Assembly (NCBI GenBank): GCA_014874455.1
Contig: JADBJL010000093.1
Coordinates: 1-36,925 of the forward strand
Origin: Thermomicrobiaceae bacterium
GTDB lineage: Bacteria > Chloroflexota > Chloroflexia > Thermomicrobiales > Thermomicrobiaceae
DNA: 36,925 nt
Direction: 5' to 3'
Numbering within the stretch: position 1 is the stretch's first letter; each line of letters starts with the position of its first letter. This document shows positions 5,600 to 11,782 of the stretch, one piece after another. The notes under the pieces were generated by a model. The model worked only from the letters and a program-made list of their open reading frames with translations, was not told the DNA's origin and searched no databases. The position numbers and the translations under genes were made by a program.

Positions 5600-5765
5600 G
5601 AGACGGCGGCGGGTGTCGGCCCTTCACCTCGTTCACGCGAGCACGAGCGTGTGTGGGTCGGCTCACACGGGGGAACGCCGGTGAAAGTCCGGGGCTGTGC
5701 CGCAACTGTGACGCCACGCCGACAGCGTGGCGAAGCCAGGTCTACCATCGCCGCCGTGTCCGACC
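5600..5765 (+). promoter_or_regulatory. Cobalamin (B12) riboswitch
   Basis: The core of the AdoCbl-type riboswitch is readable in order: GGGGAA (5670-5675), GCCGGTGAAAGTCCGG (5678-5692), CTGTGCCGCAACTGTGA (5695-5711), a hairpin CGCCACG/CGTGGCG (5712-5718 with 5726-5732), then GAAGCCAGG and TCTACC (5732-5745). GACGGCGGC (5602-5610) can pair with GCCGCCGTGTC (5750-5760) to close the outer stem P1. This architecture is specific to cobalamin riboswitches, which bind coenzyme B12 or relatives and turn off expression. A clear intrinsic terminator follows at 5829, so control is probably by premature termination. It governs the four transport-related genes downstream. Confidence 0.92.
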
Positions 5766-5828
5766 TGCCTCGAGCTAAGGGGGGAGGACGCCAGTGACGC
5801 GCTGTGCCTCAACACAGTAAACCACCGG

Positions 5829-5858
5829 CAGCCCGCCCCGCGCGGGCTGTTTCTTTTT
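5829..5858 (+). terminator. Rho-independent terminator of the B12 riboswitch
   Basis: CAGCCCGC (5829-5836) pairs with GCGGGCTG (5842-5849) across a 5-nt loop and is followed directly by a T-rich tract (TTTCTTTTT, 5850-5858). It lies about 65 nt after the riboswitch and about 190 nt before the first coding sequence, as expected for a B12-dependent transcription attenuator. A competing antiterminator could use GC-rich leader sequence, but I could not assign one. Confidence 0.85.
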
Positions 5859-6046: not shown

Positions 6047-7561
6047 GTGCGGCGTTTGCTGATGGCGCTCATTGTCACTCTTTCACTGGCGCTCCTACCG
6101 GCGTCGCCGGCCTCGGCCAACCTGGCCCCGGCCGTCGCCCTCGCCGATGCGCTGGAATGGCTGCGTGGCCAGCAGCGTGCCGACGGCGGCTTCGTTGGGT
6201 TCACCGGCGAGAGTGACCCTTCCACGACAGCCGACGCGGTATACGCACTTGCCGCCACGAATACCCCCATCGAGAGCGTGACGACCGAGGGAAGGAGTCC
6301 GCTCGACTTCCTGCTCGCTCACGCCCAGTCATACAGTGCGACTACGGGCGGCGCCGCCAAGCTGGCGCTGGCTGCCATCGCCGCCGGGGCAGACCCGCGG
6401 CAGTTCGGCGGTGTGGATCTGATCGCACGCGTCGAGAGCGCCTACGACGAGCAGACCGGGCTCTACGACCCGCAGCTCTTCGTCAACGCCTACGCTCTGC
6501 TGGCCCAGGCCGCAGCCGGCGCCGAGGTATCGCCGGCAGCGATCCAGGCAGTCTTGACCCGCCAGGCGCGCGACGGGAGCTGGGCTTGGAACGGCAGCAC
6601 CGAGCCTGGCTCGGGAGACAGCAACACGACAGCGATCGTCATCCAGGCGCTGATCGCCGCCGGTCTCCCACGCGATCACCAGGCGATCGCGGCTGGCTTG
6701 GACTACCTGCGCTCGACGCAGGCCGCCGATGGCTCGTTCGCCTACCAGCCATCCACCGAGCCGCTGGTCGGCGACGCCAACTCGACCGCGCTGGCCGTCC
6801 AGGCGATCCTGGCGGCCGGCAACGACCCGAACAGCTCGGACTGGCACTATGCCCTCGACGCGCTGGCCCGTTTCCAGAATCCGAGTGGCGCGCTGCGCTG
6901 GCGCGACGACGCCCCGGACGACAACTTGCTCGCCACCCTTCAGGCCATCCCGGCTCTCGCCGGGCGAGTACTGCCCGTGCTGCATTCCGATGCCGCCCCG
7001 TTCGCTCGGGCGCAGGCCAACGAGTCTCCTGGAATCCCTGATCGGTGTGCTTACGAGCCAGTCACACGCCACAACACGTGCGACGCTTTCCGTCGCTTCT
7101 GGGAATCGCACGGTGGCCTGGCCAACTTCGGCTACCCGCTGACCAGACCGTACTACGACCCGGCCCTCAACCTGGCGGTGCAGTACTTCGAGCGCGCCCG
7201 CTTCGAACTGCACCGGAGTGCGGATGGCAGCGCTGTCGTGCTGCTCGGGCGCCTCGGCGCCGAGCGCGCGGCAGGGCGAGAGTCCGAGCCGCCTTTCCAG
7301 TCAGCCGATCCGATCGGCCGCACCGACTGCCGCTATTTCCCTGAGACCGGCCATAACCTGTGTGCCGGCTTCCGCGCGTATTGGGAGGGGTTCGGCGGGC
7401 TGGCCGTGTTCGGTTACCCGATCAGCGAGGAGTTCACCGAAGACGGCATGGTCGTGCAGTACTTCGAGCGCGCCCGCTTCGAGTGGCATCCGGGCGCGTG
7501 GCCTGAGCGCTACGACGTGCTGTTGAGCCGGCTGGGCGCCGAGGTCGTCGCAGCACGGTAA
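6047..7561 (+). CDS. Secreted alpha/alpha-toroid (prenyltransferase/squalene-oxidase repeat) protein under B12 control
   Basis: This 504-residue exported protein has a signal peptide at residues 1-24 (basic start, hydrophobic core, 'SPASA' cleavage site). Residues about 30-305 hold at least four repeats of the type 'QxxDGSFxW...TA..V.AL..A' found in terpenoid-cyclase/prenyltransferase alpha/alpha barrels and in eukaryotic cobalamin-binding proteins (intrinsic factor, transcobalamin). No cyclase DxDD or prenyltransferase zinc site is evident. Residues 334-427 and 428-504 are two copies of a Cys-x-Tyr...'FGYP'...'VQYFERARFE' repeat common in Chloroflexota surface proteins. The GTG at 6047 was chosen because GGAGGAG lies 4 nt upstream; GTG 6029 is an alternative. 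B12 riboswitch control and ECF genes downstream suggest corrinoid capture outside the cell; this role is inferred. Confidence 0.8.
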   Translation: MRRLLMALIVTLSLALLPASPASANLAPAVALADALEWLRGQQRADGGFVGFTGESDPSTTADAVYALAATNTPIESVTTEGRSPLDFLLAHAQSYSATTGGAAKLALAAIAAGADPRQFGGVDLIARVESAYDEQTGLYDPQLFVNAYALLAQAAAGAEVSPAAIQAVLTRQARDGSWAWNGSTEPGSGDSNTTAIVIQALIAAGLPRDHQAIAAGLDYLRSTQAADGSFAYQPSTEPLVGDANSTALAVQAILAAGNDPNSSDWHYALDALARFQNPSGALRWRDDAPDDNLLATLQAIPALAGRVLPVLHSDAAPFARAQANESPGIPDRCAYEPVTRHNTCDAFRRFWESHGGLANFGYPLTRPYYDPALNLAVQYFERARFELHRSADGSAVVLLGRLGAERAAGRESEPPFQSADPIGRTDCRYFPETGHNLCAGFRAYWEGFGGLAVFGYPISEEFTEDGMVVQYFERARFEWHPGAWPERYDVLLSRLGAEVVAAR

Positions 7562-7585
7562 TGAGCCAGTCACACGGCGTTAGCG

Positions 7586-7605
7586 GGTTGCCGACAGTGG
7601 CAACC
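7586..7605 (+). repeat. Hairpin GGTTGCC-N6-GGCAACC after the toroid gene
   Basis: A perfect 7-bp inverted repeat (7586-7592 with 7599-7605, loop GACAGT) sits 24 nt after the toroid stop and 30 nt before the next start. It has no T-tract. It may stabilise the upstream mRNA or reduce read-through so that the secreted protein is made in excess over the transporter. Its arms match those of the hairpin at 5998-6017. Confidence 0.5.
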
Positions 7606-7635
7606 TAAGACCCGTCGAGGCACAGAGGCACAGGA

Positions 7636-8604
7636 ATGAGCCAGCCGCCCACAGGCCGTCGTCTCGGCAACCGCCCACGGTTATCGCTTCGATACCTGCT
7701 GGCGCTCTTGCTGCTACTCGCGCTGGTGCTGTCAGCGGTCTCCCCCATCCCGCTGGCAGCCCAGCGCCCCAGCGGCGCCGGGCTGGTCATCCGCCACGGC
7801 GATGGCCGCGTGGTCGTCTACTATGTCGAGTTCCCCGAGCCTGAGATCACCGGGCTCGAGCTGCTGGTACGCTCGGGAGCGAGTGTCACCCTGGCGAACT
7901 TCGGCGGGCTGGGGGCCGCCGTGTGCGCGATCGACGGTGAGGGATGCCCCGCTGAGAACTGCTTCTGCCAGAGCTACACCTCGCCGGCGTTCTACTGGCA
8001 CTACTACCGCCTCGATGCCACTGGCTCGTGGGTGCTTCAGCAGGTCGGCCCGTCCACTCGTCGGATCCGGGACGGGGACGTCGATGGGTGGGCCTGGACG
8101 AGCGGCGAGAGCGGGCTTCCCCCGACCTCCATCGACGAGATCGCTGCCCAGTTCGGTGTGGATCGAATGGCCGCAGCGACGCCGCTGACGGCTCAACCAA
8201 CGCGCACGCCGCCACCGCTCGCCTCTCCGACCGCGGCTCCGATGGCAGCGTCTACCCCTTCTCCGGAACCACCAGGTGGGCAGGGCGCGACACCAACCCC
8301 TGCTCCAGTCTCGGAGATGCCCGCCCTGGCCACACCGTCGCCGCGCCCCACTCAAGCAGCGTCAGCCGCTCCGGCGGCGACTCCGACTGCTGAGGCGCGC
8401 CCGGCCACCCGCGTCGCGGTATCCTCGCCACCGCCAGTCGCGGGAGGGGTAGCGACACCCAGGAAGGTACCCACCCCCGCCAGCGCTGCTCCTGGTCTCG
8501 ACACCTATGCTCCCTTCGGGGCGATGCTGGTGCTGGCGCTCGGACTGGCCGGATGGCTGGCGTGGCGCCGCGGCACCGGCCCGCCAAAAGAGGACGGCTC
8601 ATGA
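7636..8604 (+). CDS. Membrane-anchored secreted protein with DUF4430/transcobalamin-C-like domain
   Basis: This 322-residue protein has an N-terminal signal or anchor segment (about residues 19-40), one small extracytoplasmic domain (about 48-158), a long Pro/Thr/Ala/Ser linker (about 185-288) and a C-terminal membrane helix (about 293-313) with a short basic tail. The domain carries Cys97, Cys104, Cys109 and Cys111, then 'FYWHYYR' (119-125) and 'DGDVDGWAW' (146-154). The order 'sinG...yW.Y...G.s...l.dGDv..W' resembles DUF4430, the family of the C-terminal beta domain of transcobalamin; the match is by eye and moderate. The linker would hold the domain away from the membrane. Its stop overlaps the next start (ATGA, 8601-8604), indicating coupling to the ECF genes. 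Confidence 0.7.
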   Translation: MSQPPTGRRLGNRPRLSLRYLLALLLLLALVLSAVSPIPLAAQRPSGAGLVIRHGDGRVVVYYVEFPEPEITGLELLVRSGASVTLANFGGLGAAVCAIDGEGCPAENCFCQSYTSPAFYWHYYRLDATGSWVLQQVGPSTRRIRDGDVDGWAWTSGESGLPPTSIDEIAAQFGVDRMAAATPLTAQPTRTPPPLASPTAAPMAASTPSPEPPGGQGATPTPAPVSEMPALATPSPRPTQAASAAPAATPTAEARPATRVAVSSPPPVAGGVATPRKVPTPASAAPGLDTYAPFGAMLVLALGLAGWLAWRRGTGPPKEDGS

Positions 8605-9593
8605 ACGCGTTCGTCTGGCTGGCGTGGGCGGCATGTGCGACGCTGGCCGTCGCGGTCACCCGTAACCCGTTGTACCTGAGCCTCGCGCTGGTCGCCGTGA
8701 CGAGCACGTACCTTGCGGTAGACCGCCTCCGGCCGCTGGGGCACGCTCCGTCGCGGTTACCGCTGCGAGCCGGGGTGGCGATCGCGTTCACCAGTGTCCT
8801 ATTCAACGCCCTGACCGCGCACGTCGGCGATCAGGTGCTCGGCCGCTTGCCTCCCAACTGGCCGATCATCGGCGGGCCGATCACCCTCAACGCTGTGCTC
8901 TACGGGTTGCTCACCGCTACCGTGCTGTTCACCCTGCTGCTCGTCGTCGCCGTGCTCGATGGCGGACTCGACCGCGCCCAGGCACTGCGCCTCCTCCCGT
9001 CAGCTTTCTCGAACGCCGCCGTCGCCGTGGCGATCGGGCTCACCGCCTTCCCCTTCGCTGTCCGGGCCATACGGGAGATCCGCGAGGCGCAACAGGTGCG
9101 AGGATTGTCCGGTTCTCCTCTGCTTCGGGCACGCTCGATCGTTGTGCCGGTGCTCCACCGTGCGCTGGAGCACGCGTTCGCGGTGGCCGAGACCCTCGAA
9201 TCCCGCGCCTATGGCACCGAGACGCCATCCCGGTCGCGTGGCCTGCTGGTGGCGACGCTCGGTGGGGTCTTCGCCTTGACACTCGGCGTTATCGGCGGCG
9301 ATCGGCGCGTGGCCGCCTCAGGGCTCCTCATCGCTATCGTCGCTCTCACCCCGGCCACGCGCGGCATCCTGAACGGTCTCAGGCGCCTGCGCTGGACACG
9401 GGCAGAGATAATCACCCTGGCTATGACACTCGCTGGAGCGACACTCTGGCTGAGCGCGCTCGCGTTCGCTCCAGCAGAACTCTCCTATAGCACGTACCCT
9501 CGCCTGGCCTGGCCACCGTTCGACACGCTCATTGGACTTGGGTACCTGTCACTCGTCGCGCCAGCCCTTCTCCTATCGGGGGTGCGCCAGTGA
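8601..9593 (+). CDS. ecfT: ECF transporter T component (EcfT/CbiQ family)
   Basis: This 330-residue polytopic protein is the energy-coupling-factor transmembrane subunit that links substrate-binding S components to the ATPases. I count roughly four N-terminal membrane helices (about 2-19, 24-40, 55-75, 94-118), a cytoplasmic coupling region with the two characteristic Ala-Arg-Gly-like motifs, 'REAQQVRGL' (about 159-167) and 'ESRAYGTE' (about 199-206), and then about four more helices (213-327). The C-terminal part is longer than in many EcfT proteins (about 260 residues). It starts by ATGA overlap with the upstream gene and ends by GTGA overlap with the ATPase, so the three are co-translated. 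No S component is nearby. Confidence 0.88.
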   Translation: MNAFVWLAWAACATLAVAVTRNPLYLSLALVAVTSTYLAVDRLRPLGHAPSRLPLRAGVAIAFTSVLFNALTAHVGDQVLGRLPPNWPIIGGPITLNAVLYGLLTATVLFTLLLVVAVLDGGLDRAQALRLLPSAFSNAAVAVAIGLTAFPFAVRAIREIREAQQVRGLSGSPLLRARSIVVPVLHRALEHAFAVAETLESRAYGTETPSRSRGLLVATLGGVFALTLGVIGGDRRVAASGLLIAIVALTPATRGILNGLRRLRWTRAEIITLAMTLAGATLWLSALAFAPAELSYSTYPRLAWPPFDTLIGLGYLSLVAPALLLSGVRQ

Positions 9594-11227
9594 TCCAGAT
9601 CGAAAGGCTCACCTATCGCTATCCACCCCAAGCTCGCGATGCCCTTCGCGAGATCGACTGGACCGTGCGGGAGGGAGAGTTCGTCTTGCTCGCTGGCGCG
9701 TCCGGTGCCGGCAAGACGACGCTGCTTCGAAGCCTGAACGGGCTGGTTCCACACTTCCATGGCGGCCACTTCGGTGGCCGCGTGCTCATAGCGGGACTCG
9801 ACACCCGAGGGCTGAGTACAGCCAGAGTCAGCCGCCTCGTCGGCTTCGTGGCGCAGGATCCCGAGTCACAAACACTGTTCGACACGGTGGCGGACGAGAT
9901 CGCCTTTGGGCTCGAGAACCTCGGCCTCGACGAGCGGGCTATCCGTGTCCGCCTCGAGGAAGTCCTGGATCTGCTCGGGATTGTCGCGCTGCGCGATCGC
10001 CGGCTGACGACGCTCTCCGGTGGCGAGCGACAGCGCGTCGCACTCGCCGCTGCGCTTGCCGCCCGGCCGCGTGTCCTCGCCCTGGACGAGCCGACCTCGC
10101 AGCTCGACCCCTGGGCGGCAGAGACGTTTCTCGACTCACTGCGGCGACTCGTCGACGAGCTCGGCTTAACGGTCGTGCTGGCCGAGCAGCGGCTCGAGCG
10201 GGTGCTGGGGCTGTGCAGCCGGGTGAGCCTGCTCGGCCCTGATGGGCGGCTGGCGCATGACGGGCCGCCTCAGGAAGTGGCACCGCGCCTACCCTGGCCA
10301 CCACCGCTGGTACGGCTCGGTCTCGCGCTGGGCTGGCGACCGGTGCCGCTGACCGTGCCGCAGGCCCGCGGTGCGGCGCGCCACCAGCAGGTAGCGCTCT
10401 CGCAGGCCGCTACAGTGCGCCACGCCCAGCATCCGTCCGGCCCACCGGTGGCGGAGCTGGAGCGTGTGAGCGTGCGGTTGGGAGATCGCTGGGTGTTGCG
10501 TGACGTCTCACTGGCCTTCTACCCCGGTACGGTCACGGTCCTGATGGGGCGCAACGGTGCCGGCAAGACGACGCTGTTGCGGCAGATTATCGGGCTCCAG
10601 AAGCCTGATCGAGGCCGAGTCCTGGTCTTCGGCCGCGAGGCAGCCCGGGTCTCCAGACTCGAGCTGGCGCGCATGGTCGGCTACGTGCCGCAGCACCCGT
10701 CGAGCATCCTCTTCAGCGATTCCGTGCGCGAGGAACTCGCCCTGACGCTGAGGGCGCGCGGTCAGAGAGATGACGGGCTGAATCGCATGCTTGCCCGCCT
10801 CGGGCTCGTTGAGCACGCGGCGCGCCACCCGTACGACCTGAGCGGCGGAGAGCGCCAGCGGGCCGCGCTGGCGGCGGTTCTGGTCGGACAGCCGCCCCTC
10901 TTGCTCCTCGATGAGCCGACCCGAGGCCTGGATGCTGGCTGGAAGGCAGACCTCGGCCGGTTGCTGCGCGATCTCGCCAGAGAGGGGACGTCCGTTATCG
11001 TTGCCACCCACGATGTCGAGTTCGCCGCTGCCTGGGCAGATCGGATCGTGCTGCTGGCCGACGGCCACGTCATCGCCGAAGGGACGCCAGCCGAGGCGCT
11101 GGCCGGGACGCTGGCCTATAGCACGCAGATCAACCGCGTCTTCGGCGGGCCGTACCTCACTGTTGAGGATGTCCTCGCGGCGGTAGGCCACGCTCCGGCC
11201 CCGCCCGCTTCGGCTGAGGTGGGCTAA
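9590..11227 (+). CDS. ecfA: Fused double ATPase of an ECF transporter (EcfA-EcfA')
   Basis: Two ABC ATPase domains lie in one 545-residue chain, as in fused EcfA proteins, powering import. Domain 1 has Walker A GASGAGKT (36-43), 'QDPESQ', signature LSGGERQR and Walker B 'LALDEPTSQLD'. Domain 2 has GRNGAGKT (320-327), 'QHPSSILF', LSGGERQR, 'LLLLDEPTRGLD' and a normal switch histidine in 'ATHD'. In domain 1 the position expected to carry the switch His reads 'AEQRLE' with Gln200, so that site may be catalytically weakened, giving an asymmetric ATPase. It starts at GTG 9590, overlapping ecfT by 4 nt. No terminator is visible just after it. Confidence 0.9.
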   Translation: MIQIERLTYRYPPQARDALREIDWTVREGEFVLLAGASGAGKTTLLRSLNGLVPHFHGGHFGGRVLIAGLDTRGLSTARVSRLVGFVAQDPESQTLFDTVADEIAFGLENLGLDERAIRVRLEEVLDLLGIVALRDRRLTTLSGGERQRVALAAALAARPRVLALDEPTSQLDPWAAETFLDSLRRLVDELGLTVVLAEQRLERVLGLCSRVSLLGPDGRLAHDGPPQEVAPRLPWPPPLVRLGLALGWRPVPLTVPQARGAARHQQVALSQAATVRHAQHPSGPPVAELERVSVRLGDRWVLRDVSLAFYPGTVTVLMGRNGAGKTTLLRQIIGLQKPDRGRVLVFGREAARVSRLELARMVGYVPQHPSSILFSDSVREELALTLRARGQRDDGLNRMLARLGLVEHAARHPYDLSGGERQRAALAAVLVGQPPLLLLDEPTRGLDAGWKADLGRLLRDLAREGTSVIVATHDVEFAAAWADRIVLLADGHVIAEGTPAEALAGTLAYSTQINRVFGGPYLTVEDVLAAVGHAPAPPASAEVG

Positions 11228-11446: not shown

Positions 11447-11782
11447 GTGAAGTTGATGGTGGTCATCGTCCAGGACGAGGACGCCGACCAGCTCGTGAGC
11501 GAATTGGTCGCCGAGGGTTTCCGCGTGACCCGCATCGCCAGCACGGGAGCACTGCTCCGCCGGGAAAACACGAGCCTCTTACTGTGCGTCGAAGACCACG
11601 ACGTGAACCGCGCGACCGCGATCATCCGACGGATCTGTCGGCGCCGTAAGCAGGTCGTGGTGCCCTACGCGCCAGCCCTCGAGCCTGGCCTGCTATACCT
11701 TCCCGAGAACTTCGAAGTCGAGGTCGGCGGTGCGATCATCTTCGTGCTGCCAGTCGAGCGGGTCGAGCGGATTGGCGAGTGA
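11447..11782 (+). CDS. PII-like cyclic-di-AMP receptor (PstA/DarA family, DUF970)
   Basis: This 111-residue protein matches the PstA/DarA family of trimeric PII-like proteins that bind the second messenger c-di-AMP. Diagnostic features are 'VIVQDEDADQL' at the N-terminus, 'EGFRVTRIASTGALLRREN' (about 23-41; the Thr-Arg-Ile-x-Ser-Thr-Gly core binds the nucleotide) and 'LLCVEDHDV'. Length is typical (about 110). The start is GTG 11447 with AAGGGGG 6 nt upstream; the ATG four codons later is less well placed. It has its own promoter and is followed by recA with another promoter. Its downstream target is not known from sequence. Confidence 0.88.
   Translation: MKLMVVIVQDEDADQLVSELVAEGFRVTRIASTGALLRRENTSLLLCVEDHDVNRATAIIRRICRRRKQVVVPYAPALEPGLLYLPENFEVEVGGAIIFVLPVERVERIGE

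Follow-up and report, generated by a model that had tools for sequence, protein, structure and literature searches.

What is the role of an operon that places a secreted alpha/alpha-toroid protein and a membrane-anchored beta-domain protein between a vitamin B12 riboswitch and the genes of an energy-coupling factor (ECF) importer? This question is raised by a stretch of 36,925 nt (the window, to which all coordinates refer unless another locus is named) from a Thermomicrobiaceae bacterium (assembly GCA_014874455.1, contig JADBJL010000093.1), which carries such an operon on its + strand. A first-pass annotation proposed that the two domains of animal intrinsic factor occur here as two separate proteins that close around a corrinoid and deliver it to the importer. 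It now appears very likely that the operon captures a corrinoid in some form, and likely that it encodes a bipartite, intrinsic-factor-like capture device feeding a cobalamin-type ECF importer. This reading starts from direct observations, namely the gene order, the riboswitch, the folds modelled for both extracytoplasmic proteins, a linkage conserved among relatives, a substrate-specific (S) component in the same genome and natural fusions of the two proteins.

Organization of the Operon and Its Riboswitch

The first gene (GTG at 6047 to stop at 7561) encodes the toroid protein, 504 residues long, with a signal peptide, a toroid at residues ~25-311 and two C-terminal repeats. It is separated by 74 bp from the gene of P2 (ATG at 7636 to TGA at 8604), an exported protein of 322 residues that comprises, as read, a hydrophobic N-terminal signal or anchor, a transcobalamin/DUF4430-like domain, a Pro/Thr-rich spacer and a C-terminal transmembrane helix. 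They are followed by the genes of an EcfT-type transmembrane coupling subunit (330 residues, ATG at 8601 to TGA at 9593) and of a fused double ECF ATPase, EcfA (545 residues, GTG at 9590 to stop at 11227), which contains two ABC cassettes. The order of these genes and the 4-nt overlaps between the last three, both described in the first-pass annotation, were confirmed by the reading frames: P2 and EcfT overlap by ATGA, EcfT and EcfA by GTGA.

The B12 riboswitch that had been announced before this gene set is also present, and lies 5' of the span 6047-11227 given at that time. This adenosylcobalamin (AdoCbl) aptamer (5645-5793, + strand) matches RF01482 over its full length (43.3 bits, E 1.6e-6) and includes a 30-nt B12-box core (5680-5709, + strand) that follows the consensus without mismatch, the chance expectation being 0. 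Nowhere else in the 3.37 Mb genome was an AdoCbl match found. Its assignment to the cobalamin riboswitches is based on the covariance-model match and the exact core, together with relatives that exceed the gathering score with RF00174. Single-strand folding of the riboswitch region showed a stability no greater than that of shuffles (z -0.43). Between the aptamer and the toroid gene, an intrinsic-terminator-like hairpin followed by a T run (5827-5851, + strand; 10 pairs, TCTTTTTC tail; shuffles expect 0.3) suggests a control by transcription attenuation, in which this hairpin is probably the expression platform.

The Beta-Domain Protein P2

The strongest result of the analysis concerns the outer domain of P2, whose structure was predicted from an alignment of 63 sequences with a predicted local distance difference test (pLDDT) score of 93.9. 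In structural alignment, ranks 1-15 for the model of residues 41-181 are all occupied by the beta domains of haptocorrin, intrinsic factor and transcobalamin and by 3u7z, with Z of 11.1-12.5 and root-mean-square deviations of 2.1-3.1 over 96-101 residues, while the next, unrelated chain only reaches Z 5.6. Fourteen of these 15 matches are animal B12 carriers, and the remaining one, the bacterial 3u7z, has the same domain fold. Foldseek agrees with this alignment and also points to the beta domains of B12 carriers. As modelled, the outer domain of P2 has the transcobalamin/intrinsic-factor beta-domain fold.

The DUF4430-like domain initially attributed to P2 therefore stands as a predicted fold, but Pfam DUF4430 was not found by sequence. 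The DUF4430 profile matched only 1 of 63 P2 orthologues (E 0.099), which leaves P2 outside the family by profile, and P2 gave no signal against one remote DUF4430 protein when profiles were compared with a single sequence on one side. Judging from its model, P2 is a diverged relative of DUF4430 and is not classed as a member of it. P2 also matches the NCBIfam family SCO2322_fam (NF040672) with 25.3 bits (E 1.6e-5), for a family cut-off of 85. Searches of the PDB sequences with P2 alone or with P2 profiles yielded nothing useful. Four cysteines (57, 64, 69 and 71, model numbering) are conserved in P2.

Some related loci harbour a second P2-like gene beside P2 (L063:4246-4827, L074:8026-8592 and L080:4678-5241; also L087, L088, L092, L093 and L104). 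In L063, L074 and L080, this second gene encodes a terminal PEP-CTERM-like anchor, for example IPEPVTLILLGSGLAGLAGYARRRR in L080.

The Toroid Protein

The model of residues 25-311 of the toroid protein is an alpha/alpha barrel (pLDDT 97.4). Its predicted alpha/alpha-toroid fold is also that of cyclases and other proteins, and is hence unspecific. The similarity to the cobalamin-binding barrel claimed by the first-pass annotation holds insofar as transcobalamin is among the significant Foldseek matches of the model (best E 1.7e-5, query TM-score (TMq) 0.58), but cyclases match better. Among the matches listed in the structural alignment, the solved structures nearest to the model are those of squalene-hopene and drimenyl diphosphate cyclases (Z 25-27), and transcobalamin is not found in the best 50 rows, although lower-ranking matches may include it. 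The fold alone therefore does not single out the cobalamin barrel; the model fits the alpha domain of intrinsic factor, which the fold by itself does not prove.

Sequence comparisons give a similar picture. The toroid matches the NCBIfam family SCO2321_fam (NF053823) with 99.5 bits (E 1.9e-28; family cut-off 300) and Pfam SQHop_cyclase_C with 29.9 bits. Of 53 toroid orthologues, four are matched by Cobalamin_bind (PF01122) with E values up to 0.01, the best E being 1.9e-7; the two of these that were identified, L106 (E 1.3e-4, 21.5 bits) and L070 (E 0.0035, 16.8 bits), are both under the curated PF01122 cut-off of 25 bits and thus outside the profile family. The motif DANSTALAVQ and the terminal ATLQAIPAL of the toroid presumably resemble stretches of intrinsic factor. 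This resemblance is only kept as a lead, since a search with a profile of the C-terminal motifs of the toroid, meant to separate transcobalamin from cyclases, gave it no support: cyclases still headed the list, which included no B12 carrier. The class II cyclase motif DxDD is found in none of the 53 orthologues and, because of this absence, a terpene cyclase function of the toroid was rejected.

The C-terminus of the toroid protein carries two FGYP..QYFERARFE repeats. These repeats (7040-7555; FGYPLT..QYFERARFELH) resemble a stretch of another protein of the same genome (L119:178-1707), and could possibly be a cell-surface-binding domain. In other loci (L067, L069, L070, L075, L076, L100 and L102), the toroids end with an LPxTG-like motif, a hydrophobic helix and a basic tail, which suggests cell-surface sorting in those lineages. 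Seven loci (L081, L082, L083, L094, L096, L099 and L103) encode tandem toroids, two per protein, followed in some cases by an Ig-like region.

The Importer and Its S Component

The EcfT of the window has no Pfam match itself, whereas its orthologue in L083 matches CbiQ (PF02361) with 33.0 bits for a cut-off of 25, and the EcfT sequence as read carries QQVRG and ESRAYG motifs. In EcfA, ABC_tran was matched in two stretches and TIGR04520 reached 305.9 bits (cut-off 315). ECF importers also require a membrane S component, and PF12822 is the Pfam family of such substrate-specific components. The operon of the window contains none. In relatives, a gene encoding a protein of 6-7 helices lies inside or beside the operon, and 2 of the 3 members tested match PF12822 above the cut-off. 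A search with the profile of this gene revealed the S component of the genome under study on another contig (G000:C45:7346-8200, minus strand; E 4.8e-85; PF12822, 45.8 bits), which is similar to S genes that lie near the operon genes in 22 related loci. The proposal that an ECF transporter is the destination of the ligand had overlooked the S component that such a transporter needs. With EcfT recognized through its orthologues, two ATPase cassettes and S on another contig, the system belongs to the ECF transporters; from the riboswitch and the neighbouring genes only, we infer that its transport is specific for corrinoids.

The S gene overlaps by 4 nt a BtuF-like gene (Peripla_BP_2); among solved structures, the product of the latter best matches one named Vitamin B12-binding protein (E 1e-10). 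The two genes are conserved as a pair in the four genomes of the genus and in one further genome of the family. S was found in all 24 P2-bearing genomes of at least 90% completeness. Across 61 genomes, P2 and S co-occur with a Fisher P of 0.0003, a value inflated by shared ancestry and incomplete bins. The BtuF-like protein (G000:C45:8197-9132, minus strand; L119) starts with MRIVSLLPSLTE and displays no obvious signal peptide as read; judging from this sequence, it may have an intracellular role or leave the cell by an unusual route.

A search of the genome for cobQ only gave partial matches, all below the cut-off, while a B12-binding domain was found above the cut-off. B12 auxotrophy of the organism is hence probable, as judged from one biosynthesis marker and not from the full pathway.

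Recurrence in Relatives and Natural Fusions

A scan of public genomes led to 66 related loci, nearly all from Chloroflexota; a handful carry the labels Actinomycetota, Gemmatimonadales or Berkelbacteria. Of the 56 testable loci, 43 have the riboswitch core at most 1 kb 5' of the toroid gene, and it occurs at no other position in them, the chance rate being 1 match in 1.77 Mb of simulated sequence. Thirteen testable loci lack this core; 11 of them were scanned with Rfam and six have a Cobalamin riboswitch (RF00174) above the gathering score, upstream and on the same strand. Altogether, a cobalamin riboswitch precedes the genes in 49 of the 56 testable loci and, as the first-pass annotation would predict, the homologues are linked to no other kind of riboswitch.

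The gene set is conserved as well. P2 was found in 43 of 61 genomes (that of the window and 60 relatives) and the toroid gene lies 5' of P2 in 48 of 56 loci. EcfT and EcfA genes are located at most 5 kb from P2 in 29 of the 38 loci with enough downstream DNA, 26 of which show the order toroid-P2-EcfT-EcfA.

In some loci the two extracytoplasmic proteins are a single chain. Toroid and P2 are fused in L094 (965 residues) and L105 (682 residues), and a toroid is joined to a Pfam DUF4430 domain in L112 (26.6 bits, cut-off 23.8). In these fusions, the toroid comes first and the beta domain second, as in intrinsic factor. Another locus, L121, successively encodes a toroid, a DUF4430 lipoprotein, EcfT, a fused EcfA and S; Pfam recognizes the product of its second gene as a true DUF4430 protein (44.7 bits) and that of its third as a true CbiQ/EcfT (110 bits). 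The same gene set, from the DUF4430 lipoprotein through S, is found in L122. In L121, where no cobalamin riboswitch was found, a helix-turn-helix regulator gene (L121:8110-8898, minus strand) lies 5' of the toroid gene, and its product possibly controls the same system in place of an RNA element.

Proposed Mechanism and Alternative Explanations

When B12 is plentiful, the AdoCbl riboswitch would switch the operon off, as suggested by the riboswitch class and the terminator-like hairpin. Under B12 limitation, the secreted toroid, a putative counterpart of the intrinsic-factor alpha domain, and the membrane-anchored P2, with its predicted beta-domain fold, would be made. By analogy with the alpha and beta domains of intrinsic factor, the corrinoid would be held between the mouth of the toroid barrel and P2, whose anchor would bring it to the membrane. 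It would then be passed to the dedicated S component of 6-7 helices, encoded elsewhere beside the BtuF-like gene, and EcfT and the fused ATPase would drive its import. A two-protein clamp of toroid and P2 is reasonably probable. A shade less probable, though still favoured, is the wider view that an ECF importer is fed by an extracellular clamp made of the two domains of intrinsic factor, so that the architecture of animal B12 carriers would have a bacterial counterpart that is both split and fused.

Several observations weigh against a cobalamin-type capture device of this kind. The score of the AdoCbl match (43.3 bits) is lower than the gathering score of RF01482 (50); because of this, the Rfam scan of the window at gathering thresholds gave no match and the riboswitch was only seen with an E-value search. 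No cobalamin riboswitch was found in L121 and L122. Squalene-hopene cyclases are nearer to the toroid than transcobalamin is, by sequence and by fold, and a Pfam scan of the window toroid did not retrieve Cobalamin_bind (PF01122). The Pfam scan of P2 recognized no family, DUF4430 included. Finally, comparison of the S component with solved S components gave no significant match, but only weak matches to folate S components.

One alternative keeps the uptake of corrinoid and dispenses with the clamp: P2 or the toroid would bind alone, the other being a scaffold or a cell-wall tether. The beta domain of human transcobalamin has been solved by itself with cyanocobalamin (5np4), which indicates that a domain of this kind is able to bind without the barrel, and five loci (L087, L088, L092, L093 and L104) combine a riboswitch and two P2-like matches with no toroid match by this search. 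However, the conserved order of toroid and P2 and the fusions of the toroid to P2 or DUF4430 in some loci indicate a joint function, which makes independent surface proteins unlikely.

The other two alternatives remove the corrinoid itself. If the operon encoded a Cbi-type importer of cobalt under B12 control, its surface proteins would bind metal or another ligand. EcfT relatives do match CbiQ, described as "Cobalt transport protein", P2 has its four conserved cysteines and 3u7z bears the title of putative metal binding protein. However, CbiQ spans EcfT subunits for many substrates, the S component is a PF12822 protein and not CbiM, and the modelled fold of P2 is that of the beta domains of animal B12 carriers. 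Furthermore, since the genome has no cobQ above the cut-off, cobalt alone would probably not yield B12, and cobalt uptake appears very improbable. Still less credible is a secreted terpene-cyclase-type or related toroid enzyme, unrelated to B12 and in the operon by accident. Such an enzyme would agree with the squalene-hopene cyclases being the closest solved folds and with the SQHop_cyclase_C match, but not with the lack of DxDD in the orthologues, the riboswitch linkage, the fusions to beta domains and the Cobalamin_bind matches.

Relation to Known Systems

The animal B12 carriers (intrinsic factor, transcobalamin and haptocorrin), composed of Pfam Cobalamin_bind and a DUF4430-type beta domain, are extracytoplasmic proteins with the same two folds, and the bacterial fusions share their toroid-then-beta order. 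Unlike these carriers, the window encodes two separate polypeptides, with a membrane-anchored beta protein and a toroid closer to QW-repeat cyclases than to their alpha domain. Whereas animal carriers are coupled to a cell-surface receptor, the system of the window, whose corrinoid binding is putative, is coupled to an ECF importer.

As a class, ECF importers are not known to depend on separate binding proteins. The cobalamin transporter ECF-CbrT of Lactobacillus delbrueckii (PMC5997447) is an ECF importer with an S component, EcfT and ATPases. The importer studied here has the same parts and is tied to B12 by genomics. However, no extracellular partner has been described for ligand binding by CbrT, and the S component found here has no significant match to any solved one. 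In Bacteroides, the surface protein BtuG (PMC6143338) captures B12 before it reaches a transporter, and belongs to loci with corrinoid riboswitches. It is a seven-bladed beta-propeller lipoprotein acting with BtuB, and both its fold and its transporter are unrelated to those considered here. As in BtuCDF, an extracytoplasmic corrinoid binder would serve an ATP-driven importer, but the folds of the binding protein and of the membrane proteins differ, and the BtuF-like gene of this genome is coupled to S.

Cobalamin ECF transporters were reportedly predicted in the 2009 ECF survey of Rodionov et al., in which the importer half of the system may already have a name. One paper briefly refers to a riboswitch-regulated B12 transporter in Chloroflexi (PMC3766115). 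In agreement with the first-pass annotation, which knew of no system of this form, no description of one was found in the open-licence papers searched. The parts of the system are related to known families. The SCO2321 and SCO2322 families of Streptomyces, catalogued without function, are uncharacterized relatives of the toroid and P2, which score far under their cut-offs and are not members.

Directly 3' of the operon, the window also encodes a cyclic-di-AMP receptor (PF06153, 111 bits; 11450-11782), located before a RecA-like gene.

If binding is confirmed, the two proteins would be a bacterial counterpart of the animal B12 carriers, whose evolutionary origin would become testable. Confirmed binding would also reveal an ECF transporter that depends on binding proteins outside the cell, and two unnamed protein families, whose relatives range from Chloroflexota to Streptomyces, would gain a suggested function.

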